Shown in pieces: positions 7,170 through 40,532 of a stretch of DNA of 40,532 nucleotides (position 1 is its first letter; each line of letters opens with the position of its first letter). The stretch spans positions 1-40,532 of the forward strand of contig LVBB01000124.1 of NCBI GenBank assembly GCA_001603075.1, read 5' to 3'. A program made the translations under genes and the position numbers. The stretch comes from Phycisphaerales bacterium Planc_01. Lineage in GTDB: Bacteria; Planctomycetota; Phycisphaerae; Sedimentisphaerales; Anaerobacaceae. The notes beneath the pieces were generated by a model. It saw nothing but the letters and a program-made list of their open reading frames with translations. It ran no database searches and had not been told where the DNA came from.

Positions 7170-8993
7170 CTACCGGACCGGCGGGTCTATCTCAAGGCCG
7201 TCGGCCAAACAGTACTCCCGGATGGTGGCCAGGACGGCTTTGCCGTACTGCCGGCGTTTCTTCTCACCGATGCCGTTGATCTGCAGCAACTCCTCGGATG
7301 TACGGGGCCTCTGTCGAGCCATGTCCCGTAAAGCCTTGTCGCCAAAGATGATATAGGCTGGGACCTTCCTATCGGCGGCCAGTTTAGCCCTCAGGCGGCG
7401 CAGGGCTTCGAACAGCCCGCGGTCTACCCCTTCCCATGAATCGGCGGATATCGGCGTCTTCTGGGGCGGTCTCTTGGCCGGTCGGAGCAGGCGCGGTTGC
7501 TCGATGCCTTTGAGAACGCGCCGGCCCTTGTCCGTAACCGCCAGGACATTGAACTCGCCGGCCTTACACGCACAGCCCTGACCCACAAGCTGCTCGATCC
7601 AGTCGTGTACGGTGCGTTTTGGGTGCTCGCTCAGCAAGCCGTAGGTTGTCAGGGCATCGTGATGGTTCTCAAGAATCCGTTGGTCCTGGGAGCCGACCAG
7701 GACCAGGGCGGTGTAGCCGGCTCCATATCGCTCGCCCAGCCGCAGGATGCACGAGAGGATCTTCTGAGCGATCACAAGGGAGTCTTCCATGCAGTCCACT
7801 TCGCTCAGGCACACATCGCAGGCGGCGCAATCGGCCTTGTTCAGATCCTGGCCGAAGTAGCGAAGCAGGGTCCGGTGCCGACAAAACCCGCCGGTGCAGT
7901 AATTGTACATCTCGCCGAGCTTTTCGACCGCAATCTGCCGGGCCTGGGGCTCCATATCACGCATCAGGCCCTTCCAGACGCCGAAATCTCCTCCGGAGTA
8001 GAACAGGCAGCATTCGGCTTCCAGGCCGTCCCGGCCCGCTCGCCCACTTTCCTGCTGGTAGTGTTCGAGAGTCTTGGGCATGCCGGTATGGACCACATAG
8101 CGAACGTTGGATTTGTCGATGCCCATACCGAAGGCGATGGTGGCCACGATCGTATCGATCTTGTCCGTGATGAAGGCGTCCTGGTTGGCCTTGCGCCCCT
8201 CGGCGCTCATGCCGGCGTGGTAGGGGGCGGCTTTGTGGCCCTTGGCCACCAGCTCGGCGCAGAGGCTCTCCACGTCCTTTCGACGAATGCAGTAGATGAT
8301 ACCGGATTCGCCCCGGTGGCGGTCCAGGACCTCGCAGGTCTGCCGGATCCGGTCTGTGCGCGCATGTACACGGTAGACCAGGTTGGGCCGGTCGAAGGAA
8401 CCGACGATCATCTCAGGTCGGTCGAGGTGAAGCTGTTCGCCGATGTCGTCGCGCACCTTGGCCGTGGCGGTGGCGGTGTAGGCGGCGACGGGGACCTTGG
8501 GGAAACGGTCCTTGAGAGTGCCCAATTGGCGGTATTCCGGCCGGAAATCGTGGCCCCACATGCTGACGCAGTGGGCCTCATCGACCGCGATGAATGAGAC
8601 CTCGACCCGACGCAGCAGGGCGAGAAAGCCCTCCGACAGCAGGCGCTCCGGGGCGACGTAGAGCAGCTTGAGCGTTCCGGCGCGGATGTGACCGACGACG
8701 TCTTTGCACTCCTCCGGCGGAAGCGTACTGTCGATCCGGGCGGCAGGGACTCCGCACTCGGTCAGGGCGTCGACTTGATCCTTCATCAGAGCGATCAGGG
8801 GCGAAACAACAATGGTCAGGCCCGAAAAAAGTAAGGCCGGCGCCTGAAAACAGAGGGATTTTCCGCCGCCGGTGGGGAGGACCACGATGGCATCTCTGCC
8901 CCGGATCACGCTCTCGATAGCCTGTTTCTGGAGGGGCAGGAAGTCGTCATAGCCCCAATGCCTGCTCAATACCGCTCTGACGTCCTGGATCAT
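7170..8993 (-). CDS. recQ: ATP-dependent DNA helicase RecQ
   Basis: This 607-aa 3'-5' DNA helicase acts in recombination and fork repair. Walker A is TGGGKS (41-46) and the DEAH box is at 138-141. Motif IV-VI features include [19 protein letters not shown] and the [11 protein letters not shown] arginine-finger region. A zinc-binding set of Cys follows ([10 protein letters not shown] ... CAACDVC), then a winged-helix region, and an HRDC domain at about 525-600. Length and order match bacterial RecQ. The ATG has AGGA at normal spacing. The gene is transcribed away from the EPS locus and seems to be a single-gene unit. Confidence 0.97.
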
Positions 8994-31173: not shown

Positions 31174-31247
31174 CCGTTGACATGCCGGATCGATATCGGC
31201 AGCGCCGGCCAGACATCGCACGCCCGGCAGGCCGGAGGGTGATTGAT

Positions 31248-34200
31248 ATGTGTGCAACAATGAAGAAAGAAACGCGCATGGTGGACCGGGGTTCCATATT
31301 CTCGCTGATCGTTCTGGTTGTGGTTTGCGGCGCGGCGATACATGCACAAGCCGCAGCCTATACTCTGACCGTTACCGCCATGCATGGCTCGGTCACAATA
31401 AACCCCGCTAAGGCCCAATACAATGAAGGCGAGACCGTCGAACTGATCCCCAGGCCAGACGCTGGCTACAGCTTCAGCCACTGGTCCGGCGACGTGGGGG
31501 GCAAGCGATTGGTCGGCCGCATCACGATGGACTCCAACAAGTCCATTGCCGCCAACTTCCAAACATGGCAGCCTCCCATCGGCATCCCCACCCCTGAATT
31601 CGGGATCTTTGAGACCTATCGGATGTACGACAATCCCGCCAGCCGCAACCCCGCGTTGATCTACAGCCAGAACGCTGAGGGCGGTTACTACACCCACTAC
31701 GTGGACAACGACCATCCCAGCAGTACCGACTCGGGCAACACGTATGGCTCGCCATCGGTCCCCCGCAAGACGATTCCCAACATGATCCCAGCCGGCAGTG
31801 TTATCGAGGTCCGCAACAGCATTAATGAGTCCGGTACGCGATATAAGACCTTCGAGAGCAATGAGACATGGCCCGCGTTTGTCCGGGGCGCGGACGCAGC
31901 CGACCTGCCGAGCATCAACGCTACCTTCCTCACGAAAGGCTCCTACGTCATCTGGGAGAATCTCAAAGTCCAAGGCACGTTCCAGATTCGTCCTCATGAC
32001 GGCAGCAACGCCCATCACGTATGTGTCCGCAGCTGTGAGTTGTGGAACGTCGGCGAGGTTGGCAACATTACGGGCGTGTCAATCTACGGGGCGACGGACA
32101 ACCGTTTTCACGACATCGTCGTCTATGGCAACCATATCCACCACGGAGGCGACAGCGAGGCGGCGACAGAAAACGATAACCACGGCGTCAACGTCGGGAC
32201 GCAGACGCAGGACGTTTGGGTGGTGGACAACTATATCCACCACATGGGCGGCGACTCCGTTCAGTTTTGTCACGGCGCGAACTTTACCTCATACCAACTG
32301 TATGTCGGCCGCAATGTCATGCACGACGACAGGGAGAACGCCGTAGACATCAAGCAGGCAAATCACGTCATCGTCTCCGAGAACGAAGCGTGGGGCTACC
32401 GCAACCGTAGTTCTTCTAGTGGTGAGGCGATGGTGGTCCACTACGATCCACAGTACATCTGGTGGATCAACAACGTGGTCTACGAATCCATCTACGGGAT
32501 CGTAAGCACGGGCTGTTCGGACCACTACGTCATCGGCAACCTGATCTACAACGTCAAAGGAGACGCCAGCTACTCCAACGCCTACAGTCCCCACCGCAAG
32601 GGCATCGGCATTCGCTGGTACAACACGTACAGCACGGTCGTCGTCAACAACACGATCATCGACTGCGAAATGGGCATCGGGGCGGACATCCTGACTCATC
32701 CGGCCACCATTACCGGCAACCTGATCGCCGACATAAATGACACGGACGGCTATCATATCTCCTTGCAGGGCACTGGCCTTTCCACGTCCGTGATGACGAA
32801 CAATCTCCTCTACCAGAGCAATCGCAACGCCCAACTGTACTGGGGCACCACGTACGACGGGCTGGCCGCCTTCCAGTCGGGCACCGGCAAGGGAGCGGAC
32901 TGCATCGAGGCCAATCCGCTTCTGGCGACGACGTATCGCTTGACTGGAGACTCCCCGGGCGTTGATGCGGGAGTGCTGTCAGATGCCTACCAGGTATTTC
33001 AGAATTTGTATGGGATCGACATTCGCAGGGATGTTGCAGGGCGGGCGCGGCCGGTGGGGGGGGGCTGGGATATTGGGGCGTATGAGTATGTGCTGGAGGG
33101 GATTGGGGATTTGGGGGTGTCGGGGGCGGGGCGGAATTCTCTGGTGCTTTCGTGGACGGTGCCGGGAGCGGACGGCAGTTCGGATCGGCCGGGGCGGTAT
33201 GATATTCGGTACGCGCAGAGCCCGCTGACCGAGGCCAACTGGGCCGGGGCGACGCAGGTTCAGGGCGAACCAGCACCGAGCGATGTCGGCCAGTCGCAGT
33301 CGTTCACCTTGACCGGCCTGACTTCGGGCACAACCTATTACGTCGGCGTCAAGACGAGGAACGACCGCGGTACCACGGTGTCGGCTCTATCCAATATCGC
33401 CTCGGGCACCACTACAAGCAGCGGCAACCATGCGCCGGTGTTTACGCCGATCGGCGACCGAACGGTTGCCACCGGTGGGACGCTGACGTTCAGCGTTGGT
33501 GCCACGGACGCGGACGGCGATGGGTTGACGTACTCGGCCAGCGGTCTTCCGAGCGGGGCCACGTTCAATACGGCGACACGAACGTTCACGTGGACCCCCA
33601 CGAACGCCCAGAGCGGGACGTATTGGGTCACCTTCGGCGTCACCGATGGGCAGGTGAGTGTGTCTGAGACGATTTGTATCACAGTTCAACAGACGGTCAA
33701 TCATGCGCCGGTCCTGGCGGCCATCGGCAACAAGAACGTCAACGAGGGCCAGACCCTCACGTTCACCGTCAGCGCGACCGACTCGGACGGCGATTGGCTG
33801 ACGTACTCGGCGAGCAATCTGCCGAGCGGGGCGAGCTTCGTCGGCCAGACGTTCACCTGGGTTCCGACCTACGAGCAGGCCGGCTCCTATTCGGTCACGT
33901 TCACCGTCAGCGACGGGCAATCGACAGACTCCGAGCAGATCACCATCGCCGTAGCGAATGTCGTAGCGGACCTGGCAGCCCCTACGGCGGCCCCTGGCTA
34001 TCCGGCGGCGGACGCGATTCAGGTCCCGCTGAATCCGGCTATCAGTCTGACCGTCTCCGATGCCGGACAGGGCGTCGATGCCAGCACCGTGACGATTCGT
34101 GTCAACGATCAACTCGTCTATTCGGGCAATACCGCCAGCTACCAGAGCGCCTATGGTGTCTGCCGTCGCACGGGCACAAGCGCCAGCTATCGGTACACCT

Positions 34201-36068
34201 ACCAGCCGGCCACATCGTTTGCCTTTGACGAGCTGGTGACGGTCCGCGTCACGGCGTCGGACCTGGCCGGCAATGGCATGACACCACACGTCTATTCGTT
34301 CACGACCGAAATGCGGGTCTTCGGCGACAACCGTCCAGCCAGTTGGGCCCCTGAGGATCTCGACAAGAGCCGTCCGGCCACGGTCCGCGACAGCCAGGGC
34401 AATGTCTGGGCGGCCTATCAGGCGGGCCCGTCCGGGCAGAGAGACATCTACGTATGCAGCCTGCCGCCCGGCAGCGCCTATTTCGGCAGCTCGGTCCGGC
34501 TGACCACGAACAGCGCCGACCAGGCCTATCCGACCATTGGCATCGGTACGGACAACCGGCTCTACGTCGCCTGGCAGGACAACCGCCGGGGCAATTGGGA
34601 CATCTACATCAGCACTTCCTCCGACGGCCTGACATGGTCGGCCGAGACGCGGATCACCGATTCCGACGACAACCAGACTCGCCCGGCGCTGGCGGTCGAC
34701 AGGCAGTCGCCCAATCGGGTCCACGTGGCCTGGCAGGGCGACGACGCCGGCAATCCCGATATCTACATCGCCACGTCGAGCAACGCCTTTGCGACGAAGA
34801 CCGTCGCGCAGGTCACGACGAACGCCGCCGATCAGACGGCCCCGGCGATCGCGGTCGATGCGTCGAACAACGTGTACCTTGTCTGGACGGACAGCCGCAA
34901 CGGCGCCAGCGACATCTATGGCGCGGCCTCGAACAGCGGCCCTTGGACGAATGTCCCAATCGCCACGGGAGCGGGGCACCAGACGGCGGCGGTGATAGCG
35001 ACCGAATCGGCCGGAACGATGCTGCACTTCGCCTGGGTCGATGACGCCGCCGGGAACCGCGACATTCGTTATGCCTCTTCCAGCGGCATGCCGAGCAGCG
35101 CCTTGGCCGGATCGAACATCGTTGACGATACTTCCGGGGCCGACCAGACCGCCCCGACCATCGCCACCGTCGGCAGCACGGGCAACCGGTTGGGTGTGTT
35201 CGTCTGCTGGGTGGACGCAAGGAACCTCAATCCCAACGGCTGGGACACCGACCTCTATCTTGTGGACGTCGCCGCCGGGCAACGGACCAACGTCCTCGTT
35301 GGCGACGCCGGAACCGGATCGGACCAGACCGAGCCGGCCGTCGGGGTCGATCTCTATGGATACCCATATGTGCTCTGGACCGACAATCGCAACGTCGCAA
35401 AGTACGTCTACTATGCCGGCAGCACGTACATGGCCCCCGAGCCGCTGGCGACGGCGCCGATCACGGCAGCAACCGGCGGGACGGTGGGGACCGCCTCGCC
35501 GACATCCGCCTCGCATGTCTCGGCCGTGATTCCCTCCGGGGCCAGTCCGCAGGATGTGACGATCGAGATCACGCGGGTTCTCAACCCTCAATCCATGGTC
35601 GGGTCTAACGTTCTGGCCTATGATTTCGGGCCGAGCGGCCTGCAGTTCAGCCGGCCGGTGACGTTGACCATCCCGTATCCTGTGGCCAGCTTCAGCGGCG
35701 GCATGCCGGTGCCCTGTTGGTATGTCTCCCAGACCGGCACCCTCAGTCAGCAGGGCATCACGAATCCACGGGTCATCGACATTTCGTCGGCACTGAAGGC
35801 CCTGCGATTCGAGACGACGCACTTTACGCCGTACTATCTGCTCGAGTCCTTCGTCGATGACGGCGGCGACGGCGGTTGGTCGGGCGACGATGGTGGCGGC
35901 GGTGGGGGCTCCAGTGGAGGTGGTGGTGGCGGCGGTGGCGGCTGCTCGCTGGCGCCGGGCGAAAGCGGCTCTCTGGCCGGTTTCCTCCTGCCCTACATCG
36001 CCCTTGCAGCGGCCATGCTCGCCTTGCGACGGCACGACCGCCGCAGGCAGAACGTCCGAGGCCGGTGA
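31248..36068 (+). CDS. Large modular secreted surface protein (beta-helix, FN3, Ig-like, propeller)
   Basis: This 1606-aa exported protein has a signal peptide (residues 1-36, cleavage near AQAAA). Domains in order: InlB-like beta-repeat (38-105); right-handed beta-helix of pectate-lyase type (about 125-600); fibronectin type III (about 618-725); two Ig-like/cadherin-like repeats beginning NHAPV (about 727-815, 818-905); a Big_5-like domain; seven propeller repeats (about 1050-1400), one with an Asp-box (SSDGLTW); and a ZU5-like domain (about 1400-1530). It ends in a Gly-rich linker, Cys1566, a hydrophobic helix (1574-1593) and an Arg-rich end. The ATG at 31248 has GGAGG 9 nt upstream; earlier in-frame codons lack one. 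It may be an adhesin or a polysaccharide-modifying enzyme. Confidence 0.88.
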   Translation: MCATMKKETRMVDRGSIFSLIVLVVVCGAAIHAQAAAYTLTVTAMHGSVTINPAKAQYNEGETVELIPRPDAGYSFSHWSGDVGGKRLVGRITMDSNKSIAANFQTWQPPIGIPTPEFGIFETYRMYDNPASRNPALIYSQNAEGGYYTHYVDNDHPSSTDSGNTYGSPSVPRKTIPNMIPAGSVIEVRNSINESGTRYKTFESNETWPAFVRGADAADLPSINATFLTKGSYVIWENLKVQGTFQIRPHDGSNAHHVCVRSCELWNVGEVGNITGVSIYGATDNRFHDIVVYGNHIHHGGDSEAATENDNHGVNVGTQTQDVWVVDNYIHHMGGDSVQFCHGANFTSYQLYVGRNVMHDDRENAVDIKQANHVIVSENEAWGYRNRSSSSGEAMVVHYDPQYIWWINNVVYESIYGIVSTGCSDHYVIGNLIYNVKGDASYSNAYSPHRKGIGIRWYNTYSTVVVNNTIIDCEMGIGADILTHPATITGNLIADINDTDGYHISLQGTGLSTSVMTNNLLYQSNRNAQLYWGTTYDGLAAFQSGTGKGADCIEANPLLATTYRLTGDSPGVDAGVLSDAYQVFQNLYGIDIRRDVAGRARPVGGGWDIGAYEYVLEGIGDLGVSGAGRNSLVLSWTVPGADGSSDRPGRYDIRYAQSPLTEANWAGATQVQGEPAPSDVGQSQSFTLTGLTSGTTYYVGVKTRNDRGTTVSALSNIASGTTTSSGNHAPVFTPIGDRTVATGGTLTFSVGATDADGDGLTYSASGLPSGATFNTATRTFTWTPTNAQSGTYWVTFGVTDGQVSVSETICITVQQTVNHAPVLAAIGNKNVNEGQTLTFTVSATDSDGDWLTYSASNLPSGASFVGQTFTWVPTYEQAGSYSVTFTVSDGQSTDSEQITIAVANVVADLAAPTAAPGYPAADAIQVPLNPAISLTVSDAGQGVDASTVTIRVNDQLVYSGNTASYQSAYGVCRRTGTSASYRYTYQPATSFAFDELVTVRVTASDLAGNGMTPHVYSFTTEMRVFGDNRPASWAPEDLDKSRPATVRDSQGNVWAAYQAGPSGQRDIYVCSLPPGSAYFGSSVRLTTNSADQAYPTIGIGTDNRLYVAWQDNRRGNWDIYISTSSDGLTWSAETRITDSDDNQTRPALAVDRQSPNRVHVAWQGDDAGNPDIYIATSSNAFATKTVAQVTTNAADQTAPAIAVDASNNVYLVWTDSRNGASDIYGAASNSGPWTNVPIATGAGHQTAAVIATESAGTMLHFAWVDDAAGNRDIRYASSSGMPSSALAGSNIVDDTSGADQTAPTIATVGSTGNRLGVFVCWVDARNLNPNGWDTDLYLVDVAAGQRTNVLVGDAGTGSDQTEPAVGVDLYGYPYVLWTDNRNVAKYVYYAGSTYMAPEPLATAPITAATGGTVGTASPTSASHVSAVIPSGASPQDVTIEITRVLNPQSMVGSNVLAYDFGPSGLQFSRPVTLTIPYPVASFSGGMPVPCWYVSQTGTLSQQGITNPRVIDISSALKALRFETTHFTPYYLLESFVDDGGDGGWSGDDGGGGGGSSGGGGGGGGGCSLAPGESGSLAGFLLPYIALAAAMLALRRHDRRRQNVRGR
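33098..33131 (+). other. G-quadruplex motif at a domain junction
   Basis: Five G-runs occur within 34 bases on the coding strand: 33098-33101, 33105-33108, 33113-33117, 33122-33126 and 33128-33131, with loops of 3, 4, 4 and 1. It encodes the link between the beta-helix and the FN3 domain. Confidence 0.75.
34399..35430 (+). repeat. Seven protein repeats of a beta-propeller
   Basis: Seven copies of a repeat with core W-x-D-x-R-x-G-x-x-D-I-Y lie about 49-57 codons apart in the surface protein, at codons near 1051, 1105, 1157, 1206, 1258, 1314 and 1371. Copies include VAWQDNRRGNWDIYI, VAWQGDDAGNPDIYI, LVWTDSRNGASDIYG and VLWTDNRN. Seven repeats fit a complete seven-bladed propeller. Confidence 0.75.
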
Positions 36069-36077
36069 TAGCACTCA

Positions 36078-36130
36078 CAGGCCACCGGTAAGCGCTGATC
36101 CTCCTTTGATCCGTCGTTCCGGATGGCCTG
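36078..36130 (+). other. Inverted repeat between the surface-protein and EpsI genes
   Basis: CAGGCCACCGG (36078-36088) pairs with CCGG-A-TGGCCTG (36119-36130) over 11 bp with one bulged A and a 30-nt loop. It begins 10 bases after the surface-protein stop and has no T-tract. It may be an RNA-stability or processing element. Confidence 0.4.
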
Positions 36131-36178
36131 CACGCGATCGGAACAGAATCTCTCGCATATCGGATGGAGAAATTGCGA

Positions 36179-36886
36179 ATGTCGCAAGACAGGAGTCTCA
36201 ATCAACGATCCGCTGTGTTTGCGGCGGGGGTGGCGAGCGTTTTGATGGTGGCGTTCGGGCTGGGGTATCGGGCGGTGGCGGCGCGGGTTGAGTCGCCGGT
36301 CGATGCGACGCCCGTCGCTCAGGAGGCGCTGGACCGGTTGCCGCTGCAGATCGGGGCTTGGGCCGGCCAGGATACGCCGCTCGACGAAGCCGTCATCAAG
36401 GCGACGGACACCGACGCGCACATCAACCGCCAGTACGTATCGAGCGGCGGCCTGGGGGCCGTCTCGCTGTGGATCGCCTCCGGGGTTCGGGCTCGCGATC
36501 TGATGCCGCACCGTCCGGAAGTCTGCTACACGGGTAGCGGCTTTACGCTTGTGGCGCGCCAGTCGCCCGACCTGCCCCTGGCCGATGGCGGTGTGCTGCC
36601 CTGCAACGCGATGCAATTCAGTCGCGGCACGCTGGCCGGCAACAGGGTGCTGGTGTTGTATTACTATCTCGTCGACGGCCAATACTGCCGCGACGTGGCG
36701 GAGTGGCGATACAAGGTGATCTGGACGCCGATTGGGTACATCGCCCAGGTGCAGGTGATTACCGCGATCAGCGACACCACGCCAGCCGAAGTGGCCATGC
36801 GGCAGGCCGCCGCGTTCGCGACCGAGTCGGCGCCCTTGATCGCCGCACTTTTCCAGGACGAGCAAGCCGAGGCAGACCCGGATTGA
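36179..36886 (+). CDS. Exosortase-associated EpsI-family protein
   Basis: This 235-aa protein has one N-terminal hydrophobic segment (about 12-28), then the EpsI domain with the recognisable core HRPEVCYTGSGFTLV (from residue 111). EpsI proteins accompany exosortases, either as a C-terminal fusion or as a separate gene as here; they are linked to EPS production and substrate handling, with unknown chemistry. It sits outside the inner membrane by its N-terminal anchor. The start at 36179 has GGAG 9 nt upstream. The ATG at 36164 overlaps that site and is less likely. It lies 45 bp before the exosortase start. Confidence 0.88.
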   Translation: MSQDRSLNQRSAVFAAGVASVLMVAFGLGYRAVAARVESPVDATPVAQEALDRLPLQIGAWAGQDTPLDEAVIKATDTDAHINRQYVSSGGLGAVSLWIASGVRARDLMPHRPEVCYTGSGFTLVARQSPDLPLADGGVLPCNAMQFSRGTLAGNRVLVLYYYLVDGQYCRDVAEWRYKVIWTPIGYIAQVQVITAISDTTPAEVAMRQAAAFATESAPLIAALFQDEQAEADPD

Positions 36887-36931
36887 AGCGAGCCGAGCCG
36901 GGCTTTGGATCCATAGAAAGAGGAGTTGAAC

Positions 36932-37885
36932 GTGGTTGAACGTGTGATTCGACGCAGAGTGGCCCTGACACCGTCGGCCGACAGCGCGATGTCGCAGACG
37001 GCGGCGTGGCTGATTCCCCTCGTTGCGCTTCTGGTCGTGGCGACCGGATGGGCCTATTGGTCCACGGCGGTCGATATGTTCAAAGAATGGCAACGGGATG
37101 ACGACTATTCGGCCGGGCAGCTCGTTCCGCTGGTGGCGATCTTCTTCCTGTGGGTGGATCGCAAGCACCTCGCGCGCCTGCCGCTGAAGCCGTGCTGGCT
37201 GGGCGGACTGGCCCTGCTGGTGCTGGCGCAGGCGGCGCGGGCGTACGGGGTGCTGTTCCTGTTCGAATCGGCCGAGCGCTACTCGTTGGTCCTGGCGGTC
37301 GCGGCCCTGGTCCTGATGGTCGCGGGGACGGCGGTCTTCTGGCGGGTCAAGTGGATCCTGCTGTTTCTGTTCCTGATGGTGCCGCTGCCGGGACGAATCC
37401 ACAACATGATCAGCGGGCCGCTCCAGGGGTTCGCGTCCACGGGGTCGGTGTTCGTCCTCGAGGTGTTTGGCGTGCGGGTCAGCCAGCAGGGCAACGTGGT
37501 CACGCTCGATCAGCGGATTCCGATGGGGGTGGCCGAGGCGTGCAGCGGTCTGCGGATGCTCACGGCGTTCATCATCGTGGCGGTGTTCGTCGCCTACATG
37601 GTCAAGCGCCCGCGATGGCAGAAGGCGGTCCTGGTGATCTCCAGTATTCCTGTGGCTGTACTATGCAATGTGCTGCGGATCGTCGCCACAGCGGTCCTGT
37701 TCCTGCATGCCAGCTCGGAGGTGGCGGAGAAATTCTTCCACGATTTCGCCGGCCTCGTGATGATGCCCGCGGCGGTCATGCTCATGTTCGGGCAACTGTG
37801 GATCATGGCCATGCTGACCGTGCCCGAGGACAAGCCGCAGCACAAGGCCGTCGTCATCGGGCGACGCAAGCCCCGGGGCCAATAG
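36932..37885 (+). CDS. Exosortase (PEP-CTERM-type sorting transpeptidase)
   Basis: This 317-aa multi-spanning inner-membrane protease/transpeptidase of the exosortase family processes proteins with a short C-terminal sorting tail. The catalytic set is visible: Cys204 in AEACSGLRML, Arg249 in NVLRIV, and His270 in HDFAG. About eight hydrophobic helices are present. A GTG at 36932 is chosen because AGGAG lies 6 nt upstream; the TTG at 36926 directly abuts AGGAG and is not used. It follows the EpsI gene, and likely substrates lie just downstream (39150 and 39792). The subfamily cannot be told from sequence alone. Confidence 0.92.
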   Translation: MVERVIRRRVALTPSADSAMSQTAAWLIPLVALLVVATGWAYWSTAVDMFKEWQRDDDYSAGQLVPLVAIFFLWVDRKHLARLPLKPCWLGGLALLVLAQAARAYGVLFLFESAERYSLVLAVAALVLMVAGTAVFWRVKWILLFLFLMVPLPGRIHNMISGPLQGFASTGSVFVLEVFGVRVSQQGNVVTLDQRIPMGVAEACSGLRMLTAFIIVAVFVAYMVKRPRWQKAVLVISSIPVAVLCNVLRIVATAVLFLHASSEVAEKFFHDFAGLVMMPAAVMLMFGQLWIMAMLTVPEDKPQHKAVVIGRRKPRGQ

Positions 37886-38035
37886 CCGCCCCTGTCTCGG
37901 CATTTCCTGCTCCCGCAGCTCAAGCACCCCGCGACGGTCGCTGTTGTGGCCGTGTCCAACCATTCCCCATCAGACCCCCGGGAAGGGCCTCCGTCCCGCC
38001 TGGGCATATCCTCCCCGTTTGTCTTTTCGACCGGA

Positions 38036-38055
38036 GCCTTGGCCCCCGCCAAGGC
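38036..38055 (+). other. Perfect 7-bp hairpin after the exosortase gene
   Basis: GCCTTGG (38036-38042) and CCAAGGC (38049-38055) enclose a 6-nt loop. It lacks a T-tract, so it is only a weak candidate for transcript ending or protection. Confidence 0.35.
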
Positions 38056-38234
38056 GCAGTGGAGAAATCCGGCAGCGAACCAGGAGAACGGTTCCTCTAT
38101 GGCCAGACCCCCTCGGCAGGCTCGGGGTGCCGAACGACAGCGGCGGCCTGGATTGCGATACGCTGTAAGGCCGGCAAATCCATGAATGAAGCCTGCAAAG
38201 CCCCTATATTTACAGGATTCACGTCTAACCTCTA

Positions 38235-38263
38235 TTGACTTGGCCCTGTTTTTCGGGTACAAT
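38235..38263 (+). promoter_or_regulatory. Upstream promoter of the sorted-protein operon
   Basis: TTGACT (38235-38240) and TACAAT (38258-38263) are separated by 17 bases. Transcription would start near 38270, giving a leader of about 175 nt before the ATG at 38447. That leader includes a GGCGG/CCGCC hairpin. Confidence 0.65.
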
Positions 38264-38370
38264 AGGGGGATGTGAGCAGGGAATAGAGGGTAAAGGCGGT
38301 GTGTGTGTGTGCCGCCGTTGCGGAGAAGTGAGAAAAAACGGAAAACCGAGACTTTTGTATAAACTTCCCG

Positions 38371-38400
38371 TTGACAATATAGGTAAGATTGTGCTATCAT
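38371..38400 (+). promoter_or_regulatory. Proximal promoter of the sorted-protein operon
   Basis: TTGACA (38371-38376), an 18-base spacer and TATCAT (38395-38400), with TG one base before the -10 (extended -10). The predicted start near 38407 leaves a leader of about 40 nt and excludes the TTG at 38405 as a start codon. Confidence 0.7.
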
Positions 38401-38411
38401 CACATTGTCAA
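38371..38411. repeat. Perfect inverted repeat flanking the proximal promoter
   Basis: TTGACAAT (38371-38378) covers the -35 and ATTGTCAA (38404-38411) covers the predicted start site. The arms are 33 bp apart centre to centre, about three helical turns, as for a looped or dimeric operator. Confidence 0.6.
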
Positions 38412-38446
38412 AGTGTGTGTCTTTAGGTTATTGGGTAGCTGAATCC

Positions 38447-39025
38447 ATGGTCGAGTTGAGAAAAACCATCCTGTCGGTTGCGGCGATCTTCGTCGTGGCC
38501 GCTTCTGCGCATGCGGGGCTTTCGCCCGTTTGCGTGGTGGACGGCACCTCAGATGCGGCCTATACGCTCGACCTGGCCCAGTGCCAGGAAGTGCTGCTGT
38601 TCGGTTTCTCGGACCGTGGTCCCATCGCCGCCGACGTGGTCCCGCAGGGCGAGCGCCTCGCCGAGACGGCGCAGGCGGACGAAGCCGAACCGGCCATCAC
38701 ACTGCGGGACGGCCGCAGCAGTCTGGATTTCTGCCTCTATACCCTGCTCGGTCTGGGCGTGTTCCGCTCGGGCCACTGGGTTCGTCGAACTTCGCTCGGT
38801 TTCATTCCCGAATGGTACCACAGCGGTGCTCCGCAGCAGATCGGCCACAGCCATGCTGTGGGGCCCGATGCCTACTGTCATGCGGCGGTCTGCTTCGTCC
38901 AGCCGGACGTGATGCCTGATCGTCTCATGCCGCTCTACGACCAGGGCACGATACCGTCCCTGGTGCGCACTTCGCAATTCATTTCCGACGTACTTGCCTC
39001 TCGGGCCCCTCCGAGCCTGTCATGA
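38447..39025 (+). CDS. Secreted protein of unknown function next to the exosortase
   Basis: This 192-aa protein has a signal peptide (residues 1-24, cleavage after AHA). The mature part is neutral to acidic, with four to five Cys and a short hydrophobic stretch (LDFCLYTLLGLGVF) in the middle. I recognise no family. It has no VPVPGA tail, so it is not an obvious exosortase substrate. It is the first gene after the tandem promoters and likely shares a transcript with the two tail-bearing genes. The ATG at 38447 is chosen because transcription from the proximal promoter starts near 38407; a frame start at 38405 is excluded. Confidence 0.7.
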   Translation: MVELRKTILSVAAIFVVAASAHAGLSPVCVVDGTSDAAYTLDLAQCQEVLLFGFSDRGPIAADVVPQGERLAETAQADEAEPAITLRDGRSSLDFCLYTLLGLGVFRSGHWVRRTSLGFIPEWYHSGAPQQIGHSHAVGPDAYCHAAVCFVQPDVMPDRLMPLYDQGTIPSLVRTSQFISDVLASRAPPSLS

Positions 39026-39074
39026 GCCCTGACGGCCTCGCCCGTTGTGCCGGGCCCGCCGTCGCCGATGCGAA

Positions 39075-39098
39075 CCTTCCGCTCGAACGAGCGGAGGG
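39075..39098 (+). other. Strong hairpin in the leader of the first VPVPGA gene
   Basis: CCTTCCGCTCG (39075-39085) pairs with CGAGCGGAGGG (39088-39098) with one G-U pair. It lies 51 bases before the ATG at 39150. No T-tract follows, so it more likely protects the downstream mRNA than ends the upstream one. Confidence 0.5.
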
Positions 39099-39149
39099 CA
39101 AACAAAGCCAATCATGACAGAGTTTCACAAAAGAGAAGGAGCAAGTACT

Positions 39150-39755
39150 ATGAAGAAGTTCAGTATCGCCATCGTCGTGGCCTGCCTGATGGCCCTCACC
39201 GCCGGAACCGTTTCCGCCGATCCAGTAGTCAACTTCAGCCAGTTCTTGGATTTCCGTGCCGGCGGCGATCCTGGCAATCCTGCAAACCATCCTTTCGGCA
39301 TATTCATTGTGCAGGGCCAGCCTTTCACTTACCAGCATGACGTACTGAATGCAGTGCCTTCAATCGACATTGGCGCCGGCCATTACGTCACCGACGCGAC
39401 CCTCAAGCTCTACTTCTACGATGAAGATACCGATGGAATTGGCAACTACGAGTGGGTCACCGTGAATTTCAATGGCGGCGCCGGGACGTGGAATATCGGC
39501 ACGTATGGCGACGGCAGTGACGATGTGGATTGGGCCACATATCCGTTTGCAGTCGATGTCGCCTGGATCAACGGCAACAACGGTATTCTTGCTGTTGAGG
39601 TGGCGGTTCGGAACGTGGGCGGCACAGGGGATATCTTCTTGAAGACCTCAGAGCTTTCTGGGACGGCCGTCGTTCCGGTTCCGGGTGCGGTTCTGCTGGG
39701 CGTTCTGGGCTTGGGTGCTGCCGGGATGAGACTTCGCAAGAACAAGGTTGCCTAA
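39150..39755 (+). CDS. Secreted protein with VPVPGA exosortase-type C-terminal signal (first)
   Basis: This 201-aa protein has a signal peptide (MKKFSIAIVV..., cleavage after VSA, residue 23), then a beta-rich region (about 24-170) of unknown fold. It ends in a tripartite sorting signal: VPVPGA (from residue 175), a hydrophobic helix (VLLGVLGLGAAG) and a basic end (RLRKNK). This is the PEP-CTERM/VPLPA-CTERM layout. The exosortase about 1.3 kb upstream is the likely processing enzyme. The ATG has AAGGAG 8 nt upstream. The role is probably matrix or surface structure. Confidence 0.85.
   Translation: MKKFSIAIVVACLMALTAGTVSADPVVNFSQFLDFRAGGDPGNPANHPFGIFIVQGQPFTYQHDVLNAVPSIDIGAGHYVTDATLKLYFYDEDTDGIGNYEWVTVNFNGGAGTWNIGTYGDGSDDVDWATYPFAVDVAWINGNNGILAVEVAVRNVGGTGDIFLKTSELSGTAVVPVPGAVLLGVLGLGAAGMRLRKNKVA
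39672..39740 (+). repeat. Sorting-tail coding repeat, copy 1
   Basis: These 69 bases encode 23 residues, VPVPGA to RLRK, and match 40383-40451 at 61 of 69 positions. All eight differences are synonymous. Confidence 0.85.
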
Positions 39756-39791
39756 TCAACGACAGTTTCCTTTTCGGTGGAGGTAAGAACG

Positions 39792-40463
39792 ATGAGAAGT
39801 ACAATGATACTCCTATGCATGGCAGCGATTCTGGCCCTCGGCGCCGCACCAGCTTCGGCAGATCTTTTTGGTTTTAGCGTCAGCAACCCAGTATGCTCGT
39901 TTGATGGGGTCGATTCCTTCGTCACGGAGGTGTGGACCAATACGAAGATCGATCTGTACCGCAATCTCTCGCCGGTGGGACTTGCCGAGTTCGGCGGGTC
40001 CGCTGGATCTTGGGGTTCGGGATTGGAAGGCTTCGTGCTGTCGATGACCATTACAGACATCACCACAAGCACGGCATCTGGCTCGGGCTCCTTTAGCTTC
40101 ACGGATTTCGACGGTGACTTGATCGCTGGCAGTGTTAGCGGTTCTTGGACCAGTATGGCGGGTCGCGCCGTGTTCGCGGGAAGCTTGTCGGACGTGACTT
40201 TTGCCCCACTCGTAGATGACTCCTTCGACGGCCACCAAGGTAGTGTTTCGATGGTCTTCAGCGCGCCGCAACCGTGGAACGGCACGCTCATCCAGCTGAC
40301 CGCGACAGGCGGCTGGTTCACGGATGCCCAAGGTGAGCTAAGGGAGTACAGTGTACCTGGCGGCAGCATCGATGCGGCTGTTGTTCCGGTTCCTGGTGCG
40401 GTTCTGCTGGGCGTGCTGGGTCTGGGCGCTGCGGGGATGAGACTGCGGAAGCGGCAGTCGTAA
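39792..40463 (+). CDS. Secreted protein with VPVPGA exosortase-type C-terminal signal (second)
   Basis: This 223-aa protein has a signal peptide (cleavage after ASA, residue 23), then a beta-rich, Ser/Thr/Gly-rich domain of no recognised family. It ends in the same tail as its neighbour: VPVPGA at residue 198, a hydrophobic helix and RLRKRQS. The ATG has GGAGGT 7 nt upstream; a GTG 15 bases earlier sits on that site and is rejected. It lies 36 bp after the first VPVPGA gene, so the two are bicistronic. The bodies of the two proteins are unalike. It is a likely exosortase substrate. Confidence 0.85.
   Translation: MRSTMILLCMAAILALGAAPASADLFGFSVSNPVCSFDGVDSFVTEVWTNTKIDLYRNLSPVGLAEFGGSAGSWGSGLEGFVLSMTITDITTSTASGSGSFSFTDFDGDLIAGSVSGSWTSMAGRAVFAGSLSDVTFAPLVDDSFDGHQGSVSMVFSAPQPWNGTLIQLTATGGWFTDAQGELREYSVPGGSIDAAVVPVPGAVLLGVLGLGAAGMRLRKRQS
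40383..40451 (+). repeat. Sorting-tail coding repeat, copy 2
   Basis: This is the second copy of the tail-coding segment at 39672-39740, identical in protein over 23 residues. Confidence 0.85.
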
Positions 40464-40532
40464 AGGAGCAGGCCTGGCGACAGGCGCGCTCTACAGTGAA
40501 GTGATGTATAGACGGCCGGCAAGGCCCCGATA

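Follow-up and report, generated by a model that had tools for sequence, protein, structure and literature searches.

The window analysed here, contig C124 (LVBB01000124.1, 40,532 bases, taken whole), belongs to the 5.65-Mb draft genome of Phycisphaerales bacterium Planc_01 (97.41% complete). It encodes an EpsI-family protein, an exosortase and two proteins ending in VPVPGAVLLGVLGLGAAGMRLRK, all inside 4.3 kb. We propose, with a probability of about 0.65, that the exosortase, aided by EpsI, and the VPVPGA tail form a dedicated pair of enzyme and sorting signal of the PEP-CTERM kind, and sequence comparisons suggest that the two diverged jointly from a sister enzyme whose tag is different. A preliminary description of the window had picked out the same four genes, and family models and tail reads confirm them; it did not include a fifth gene, here called SRGPP, between the exosortase gene and the tailed genes. 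The features are:

36164..36886, + strand: EpsI-family protein, 240 amino acids (PF11984, E 1.6e-21; TIGR02914, 49.3 bits, cut-off 42.8)
36926..37885, + strand: exosortase of the window clade, 319 amino acids from TTG (PF09721, TIGR02602, tree and invariant residues)
38371..38400, + strand: candidate sigma-70-like promoter, TTGACA-18-TATCAT, before the SRGPP gene (consensus match only)
38447..39025, + strand: SRGPP-family protein, 192 amino acids, between the exosortase and the tailed genes
39150..39755, + strand: tailed protein 1, 201 amino acids, tail at 39672-39752
39792..40463, + strand: tailed protein 2, 223 amino acids, tail at 40383-40460

The exosortase matches PF09721 at E 2.4e-62 (211 bits, cut-off 25.7) and TIGR02602 at 152 bits (cut-off 105.55). 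Its Cys206, Arg251 and His272, numbered from the TTG, are conserved without exception in the 78 exosortases aligned. These are the residues that the preliminary description had named, although its numbering (204, 249 and 270) fits an alternative GTG start at 36932. The EpsI gene lies directly 5' of the exosortase gene and, with a score over the cut-off and an exosortase as neighbour, its product belongs to the EpsI family. The genome has three exosortases, on C124, C24 and C8, and three EpsI matches on the same contigs (the one on C8 at 25.2 bits, under the 26.1 cut-off). The C24 and C8 enzymes are 43% and 32% identical to that of C124; other relatives are found in the metagenome-assembled genomes Phycisphaerae bacterium AS06rmzACSIP_359 (80%) and Sedimentisphaerales bacterium Zod_Metabat.1213 (62%). 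A sequence search of solved structures gave no match at E≤1.

The comparative sample comprised 148 genomes of one order, the Sedimentisphaerales, with few searches beyond it. The 103 exosortase domains in the loci were reduced to 79 by removing copies and to 78 by dropping an extra copy of the C24 enzyme. In the resulting tree, whose long reference branches were flagged by the program, the window enzyme falls in a clade of 13 rows (support 99/99). Its sister is a clade of 36 rows (98/94; union 98/95) that includes the C24 enzyme, referred to as the fused clade. A third clade of 21 rows (100/99), which includes the C8 enzyme, stands apart from both. The window and fused clades together have two plasmid-borne Isosphaerales enzymes as their sister, and two XrtD references, XrtB, XrtV and two others are placed outside the clades. 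The third clade is taken to serve VPEP tails, by elimination only, because PF07589 matches occur in 146 of the 148 genomes; the tree check proposed in the preliminary description thus places the window enzyme outside the clade so assigned.

Membership in five named classes was rejected, both from model scores and from the tree with its eight references, several of them long-branched. The window enzyme scores 175.6 bits on XrtD (TIGR04152, cut-off 400), a model that includes a fused EpsI domain absent from the window enzyme and on which a stand-alone enzyme could hardly reach 400 bits. It scores 161.9 bits on XrtA (TIGR03109, cut-off 208), and 156.7, 127 and 81.6 bits on NCBI exosortase W (NF038142), XrtV and XrtB (cut-offs 425, 313 and 275).

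An N-terminal LbH/hexapeptide domain was found on the three fused-clade proteins scanned, two of which have only Hexapep/GlmU-like models, or none, over cut-off. These proteins are encoded at L002 1483-3582 (C24, own genome), L128 4278-6491 and L130 14893-16881. Open frames of the clade are mostly about 630-740 amino acids long, five rows being shorter fragments or stand-alone forms, and open frames of about 650 amino acids are frequent among exosortase matches in the order. Near the active site, fused-clade enzymes have Cys-Asn-Gly (35 of 36) and window-clade enzymes Cys-Ser-Gly; position 207 is S in the window clade vs N in the fused clade, and position 275 is A vs G. Clade-fixed positions in the window enzyme are D60, S207, V218, Y224 and A275. 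A bacterial sugar transferase at L130 10777-12474 has a weak LbH match in its N-terminal half (25.6 bits, cut-off 54).

The two tails of the window are identical at 23 of 23 compared positions, on bodies that are dissimilar (blastp, E≤0.01). The VPVPG DNA pattern occurs twice in the window (both strands), against a shuffle mean of 0.10, and two were reached in 0 of 100 shuffles. Across the order, we identified 32 linked tails in 12 of 13 window-clade regions and 37 in 17 of 28 fused-clade regions, whereas the motif filter found none in the 21 third-clade regions; genome G086, with an enzyme fragment, was left uncounted although its contig carries tails. Bodies of the window-linked proteins are unrelated by blastp in 459 of 496 pairs, while their tails are 69% identical on average (minimum 30%). 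Motif, helix (judged by eye from composition) and basic end are therefore common to unrelated proteins.

Tails linked to the two sister clades are of different classes. Those of the window clade read VPVPxA..LGxLGLxxAGx[KR]LR[KR], and those of the fused clade IPAPGA..LGSIGVxLVGWLRRRRTL. Position 3 is V in 29 of 32 window-linked tails vs A in 35 of 37 fused-linked tails, position 17 is A in 28 of 32 vs V in 35 of 37, and W19 is found in 2 of 32 vs 35 of 37 (two odd-looking tails, L131 3412 and L170, were retained among the 37). The helix end also differs, xKLRK vs WLRRRR. The VPVPGA motif, initially thought to be distinguishing, is thus so in part: V3, A17 and xKLRK separate the classes, but PxPGA is common to both. 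Leave-one-genome-out models gave 69 of 69 linked tails to the correct enzyme clade, and this includes the genomes whose two loci both yielded tails (G000, G053, G038, G127 and G145). Together with the separate enzyme clade, this supports the distinct enzyme-signal pair put forward in the preliminary description.

The suggested search of the genome for such tails yielded, among the tails read, eight of the PxPGA type (C124 twice, C144, C1, C139, C24, C93 and C47), along with three PEP-type tails (C139 twice, C24) and a doubtful one on C122. A profile of the eight has further matches in the genome on C22, C8 and C121 (E≤1e-4; 15 in total at E≤1). Models built without this genome assign the C124, C144 and C47 tails to the window type and those of C24, C1, C139 and C93 to the fused type; its PEP tails score near zero on both. 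The C1 tail has VPVPGA yet scores nearer the fused class (40.1 vs 34.0 bits), and on C80, C49 and C143 the hexamer occurs outside any C-terminal tail; therefore, VPVPGA alone is not diagnostic. Other tail models match window-type tails weakly (MYXO-CTERM in 9 of 27, best E 0.0042), which was taken as chance likeness of helix and basic end.

Enzyme and tail also co-occur. Exosortase matches at E≤1e-45, a cut set by eye for the window or fused type, were detected in 84 of the 148 genomes, weaker matches only in 57 and none in 7. With the profile of the eight own tails (E≤1e-6), to which no other genome contributed, 72 genomes have both enzyme and tail, 12 the enzyme only, 13 the tail only and 51 neither (p 5.6e-16); the counts are 34, 5, 5 and 22 for the 66 better genomes, and 46, 5, 6 and 26 by genus. 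For each class a profile was assembled manually, with duplicate, near-duplicate and divergent linked tails omitted (A3 from 27 of the 32 window-linked tails, A4 from 30 of the 37 fused-linked); these matched 21 and 92 genomes, respectively, at E≤1e-7. Window-type tails are found in 12 of 13 window-clade genomes, in 9 of 71 with the fused clade only and in 0 of 64 without a match to either clade (12 of 13 vs 9 of 135 others, Fisher p 2.5e-11). Of the 84 genomes with either clade, 78 have fused-type tails, vs 14 of the 64 without. In a sample of the phylum, tails matching profile A2 (E≤1e-4) were detected in 6 of 294 genomes, five of them in the order, including this one. The sixth, G157, has one fused-type tail (L238, G157:C253) on a 3.3-kb draft contig, possibly through contamination.

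Several observations weigh against a dedicated pair. The linked tails were selected by our own motif filter, and the co-occurrence p-values ignore genome relatedness. The A3 count is partly circular, as 11 of the 12 window-clade genomes supplied A3 tails, and because of this we lowered the probability from 0.68 to 0.65; the counts of 0 of 64 and 9 of 71 are free of the problem. The SRGPP count given below is partly circular as well (10 of the 11 matched window-clade genomes supplied rows of its profile, A5). The nine genomes with window-type tails and no detected window-clade enzyme are drafts of 50 to 630 contigs; an assembly gap may, but need not, explain the absence. Stretches were fetched for G114, G140, G147, G123, G128, G074, G100, G124 and G120, and the tail letters, read in eight of the nine (one stretch each), are mostly window-type, with G128 and G140 mixed. 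Conversely, G049 has a window-clade enzyme without such a tail, on a contig that stops about 0.6 kb past the enzyme. Eleven of the 28 fused-clade regions have no linked tail, seven of them at a contig edge, and of the 14 genomes with fused-type tails but neither clade, three (G085, G052 and G144) can be put down to a fragment or a contig end, which leaves 11 unexplained. The C1, C93 and C139 tails score more than 30 bits on both class models. Finally, the window tails are under the curated PEP-CTERM cut-offs: on PF07589 (cut-off 20.7), tailed proteins 1 and 2 score 15.0 and 16.0 bits when the protein is searched, and 18.8 and 20.1 bits when the genome is; on TIGR02595 (cut-off 16), the first window tail scores 10.2 bits and the first fused-type tail 19.5.

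Some of these points would fit sister exosortases that are interchangeable, the tail differences between loci having arisen by local multiplication or conversion of tail-coding genes. The nine genomes in which the fused clade alone was detected beside window-type tails, the tails that score well on both models and the identity of the two window tails all favour this explanation, which we nevertheless consider unlikely. A class-specific tail is carried by unrelated bodies, the residues at 207 and 275 are clade-specific, and window-type tails also occur on contigs apart from that of the enzyme, for example in G068 (20 window-type and 25 fused-type matches, counts that may overlap). It is very improbable that the third-clade C8 exosortase handles all tails while the window enzyme acts elsewhere, for example on the Cys-tailed protein encoded upstream (see below). 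PF07589 tails in 146 of 148 genomes and a Cys-type tail upstream in 5 of 13 window-clade regions would agree with this, but window-type tails were found in none of the 64 genomes that lack a match to the window or fused clade, and no linked tail was found in the 21 third-clade regions. Least probable of all, tails that are ordinary, never-cleaved membrane anchors would fit scores under the curated cut-offs and cleavage that is so far deduced, but hardly the linkage to exosortase genes, or a motif, helix and basic end that persist on unrelated bodies.

The SRGPP protein has a signal-like N-terminus, a hydrophobic stretch and a conserved C-terminal part ending in SRAPPSLS. It has no NCBIfam or Pfam match at E≤10, and 12 members searched against Pfam gave stray single-member matches only (best E 0.0022). 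The 23 SRGPP genes detected with profile A5 are spread over 13 of the 148 genomes, comprising 11 of the 13 window-clade genomes vs 2 of 135 others (G100 and G123, both with window-type tails). A window-type tail starts 592-954 bases 3' of the gene, on the same strand, in 22 of 23 cases; in the exception (G100:C173) the gene lies 249 bases from the contig start. Twelve of the 23 are rows of A5, mostly from regions already known to hold tails, and the fairer count is 10 of 11 genes outside A5. Counted from coordinates, ten of the 23 have no window-clade exosortase match on their contig or, as in G127, one that is half a megabase distant; the association is therefore not one inherited operon. By blastp, the proteins 3' of SRGPP group into seven clusters with at most 15 members (tails were part of the comparison, and one open reading frame was wrongly picked). 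At L050, an SRGPP gene (7318-8028) and a VPVPGA-tailed gene (tail C144:52699) pair up as a unit of two genes, and the surrounding 16 kb contains no exosortase.

These distributions point to SRGPP as a companion of window-type substrates. By eye, its hydrophobic stretch and basic residues resemble a tail without PxP, and it is conceivable, though we think it quite unlikely, that SRGPP (perhaps also the RGPP-ending proteins described next) serves a single exosortase class as its dedicated adaptor, the three components (enzyme, tag, adaptor) then diverging together. SRGPP would then be a membrane protein whose tail-like segment guides or holds window-type substrates. Fused-clade regions encode RGPP-ending proteins of 200-300 amino acids (L130 4770-5606, L132 5404-6276 and L134 15010-15780) with an internal LPAVPxA-helix-RDR segment. 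Their homology to SRGPP was not supported (hhalign probability 12.9%, over 20 signal-peptide columns). The candidate promoter matches 11 of 12 consensus positions; 36000-40532 has 3 such sites, against a shuffle mean of 0.9. A conserved RpoN site before SRGPP genes was rejected, with simple matches in 2 of 23, one of them in a coding stretch, and misplaced windows at truncated loci.

Window-clade regions share the order EpsI, exosortase and tailed proteins, with an SRGPP gene in 10 of 13. In several, a large protein follows the tails; the single example scanned is of the TPR type and, among named models, scores highest on PrsT (236 bits, cut-off 312.2). Fused-clade regions run from the fused exosortase through a tyrosine autokinase, a polyprenyl glycosylphosphotransferase-like protein and a TPR protein to the tails, with the protein identities taken from one scanned locus. 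The 10 proteins scanned upstream of the exosortase locus in the window include glycosyltransferases, a methyltransferase and an AAA_31 protein, an exopolysaccharide neighbourhood as in the part of the PEP-CTERM/EpsH account consulted (PMC1569441). The protein 5' of EpsI (31182-36068, + strand, 1628 amino acids) has a C-terminus made up of a stretch rich in Gly, then CS, a hydrophobic segment and RRHDRRR. Similar Cys-type tails are found in four other window-clade regions (L115 1372-6270, L120 1-2781, L122 33-1316 and L123 18-470), a sixth pattern match being an ordinary fused-type tail; the two scanned matched no NCBIfam tail model.

The system resembles PEP-CTERM/EpsH (TIGR02595/TIGR02602; Haft 2006, PMC1569441), as far as the consulted portion of that paper describes it, in its tripartite C-terminal tail, Cys/Arg/His exosortase, EpsI, PrsT-like TPR protein (weak, at one locus) and exopolysaccharide neighbourhood. 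It differs in its own enzyme clade, P-V-P-G-A in place of P-E-P, a distinct helix end and the SRGPP gene. XrtD with VPLPA-CTERM (TIGR04152, TIGR03370) shares a tail without Glu and provides the best-scoring named model for the window enzyme. That enzyme is, however, far under the 400-bit cut-off and has no fused EpsI, the two XrtD references are outside its clade, and TIGR03370 touches only 3 of 27 window-type tails (best E 0.61). The LbH-fused exosortases (own C24:38735-39595) are alike in being the sister clade, with PxPGA tails and a large TPR neighbour, and differ in their N-terminal hexapeptide domain, IPAPGA...VGWLRRRR tails and Cys-Asn-Gly. GlyGly-CTERM/rhombosortase, in the part of the source seen (PMC3237569), has a tail built along similar lines and its own sorting protease, identified via co-occurrence; its enzyme belongs to an unrelated superfamily and its motif is another.

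We propose the following mechanism. Tailed proteins would be exported via an N-terminal signal peptide and kept in the inner membrane by the C-terminal helix, its basic end facing inwards. The window exosortase, aided by its own EpsI, would recognise VPVPGA and the helix end AGx[KR]LR[KR]. Cys206, assisted by Arg251 and His272, would attack near the motif and remove the tail, and the processed protein may then be handed to an acceptor made by the adjoining exopolysaccharide genes. The LbH-fused C24 enzyme would do likewise for IPAPGA...VGWLRRRR tails. A sister pair with separable tails and an SRGPP companion did not appear in the literature searched (tail motifs, and exosortase with Sedimentisphaerales or Phycisphaerae; the SRGPP motif itself was not searched), and we judge these to be additions to a known kind of system. 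The tail motifs led only to a vaccine design for Trichomonas, and a Phycisphaerae paper mentions exosortase solely among its references.

To our knowledge, how exosortases discriminate between tails is an open question. Two sister enzymes with separable tails in one genome would allow a clean tail swap, with the clade-fixed positions as targets. As the window tails score under the curated PEP-CTERM cut-offs, similar tailed proteins may go unlabelled in other genomes, and the SRGPP family would be an unnamed companion of the pair.

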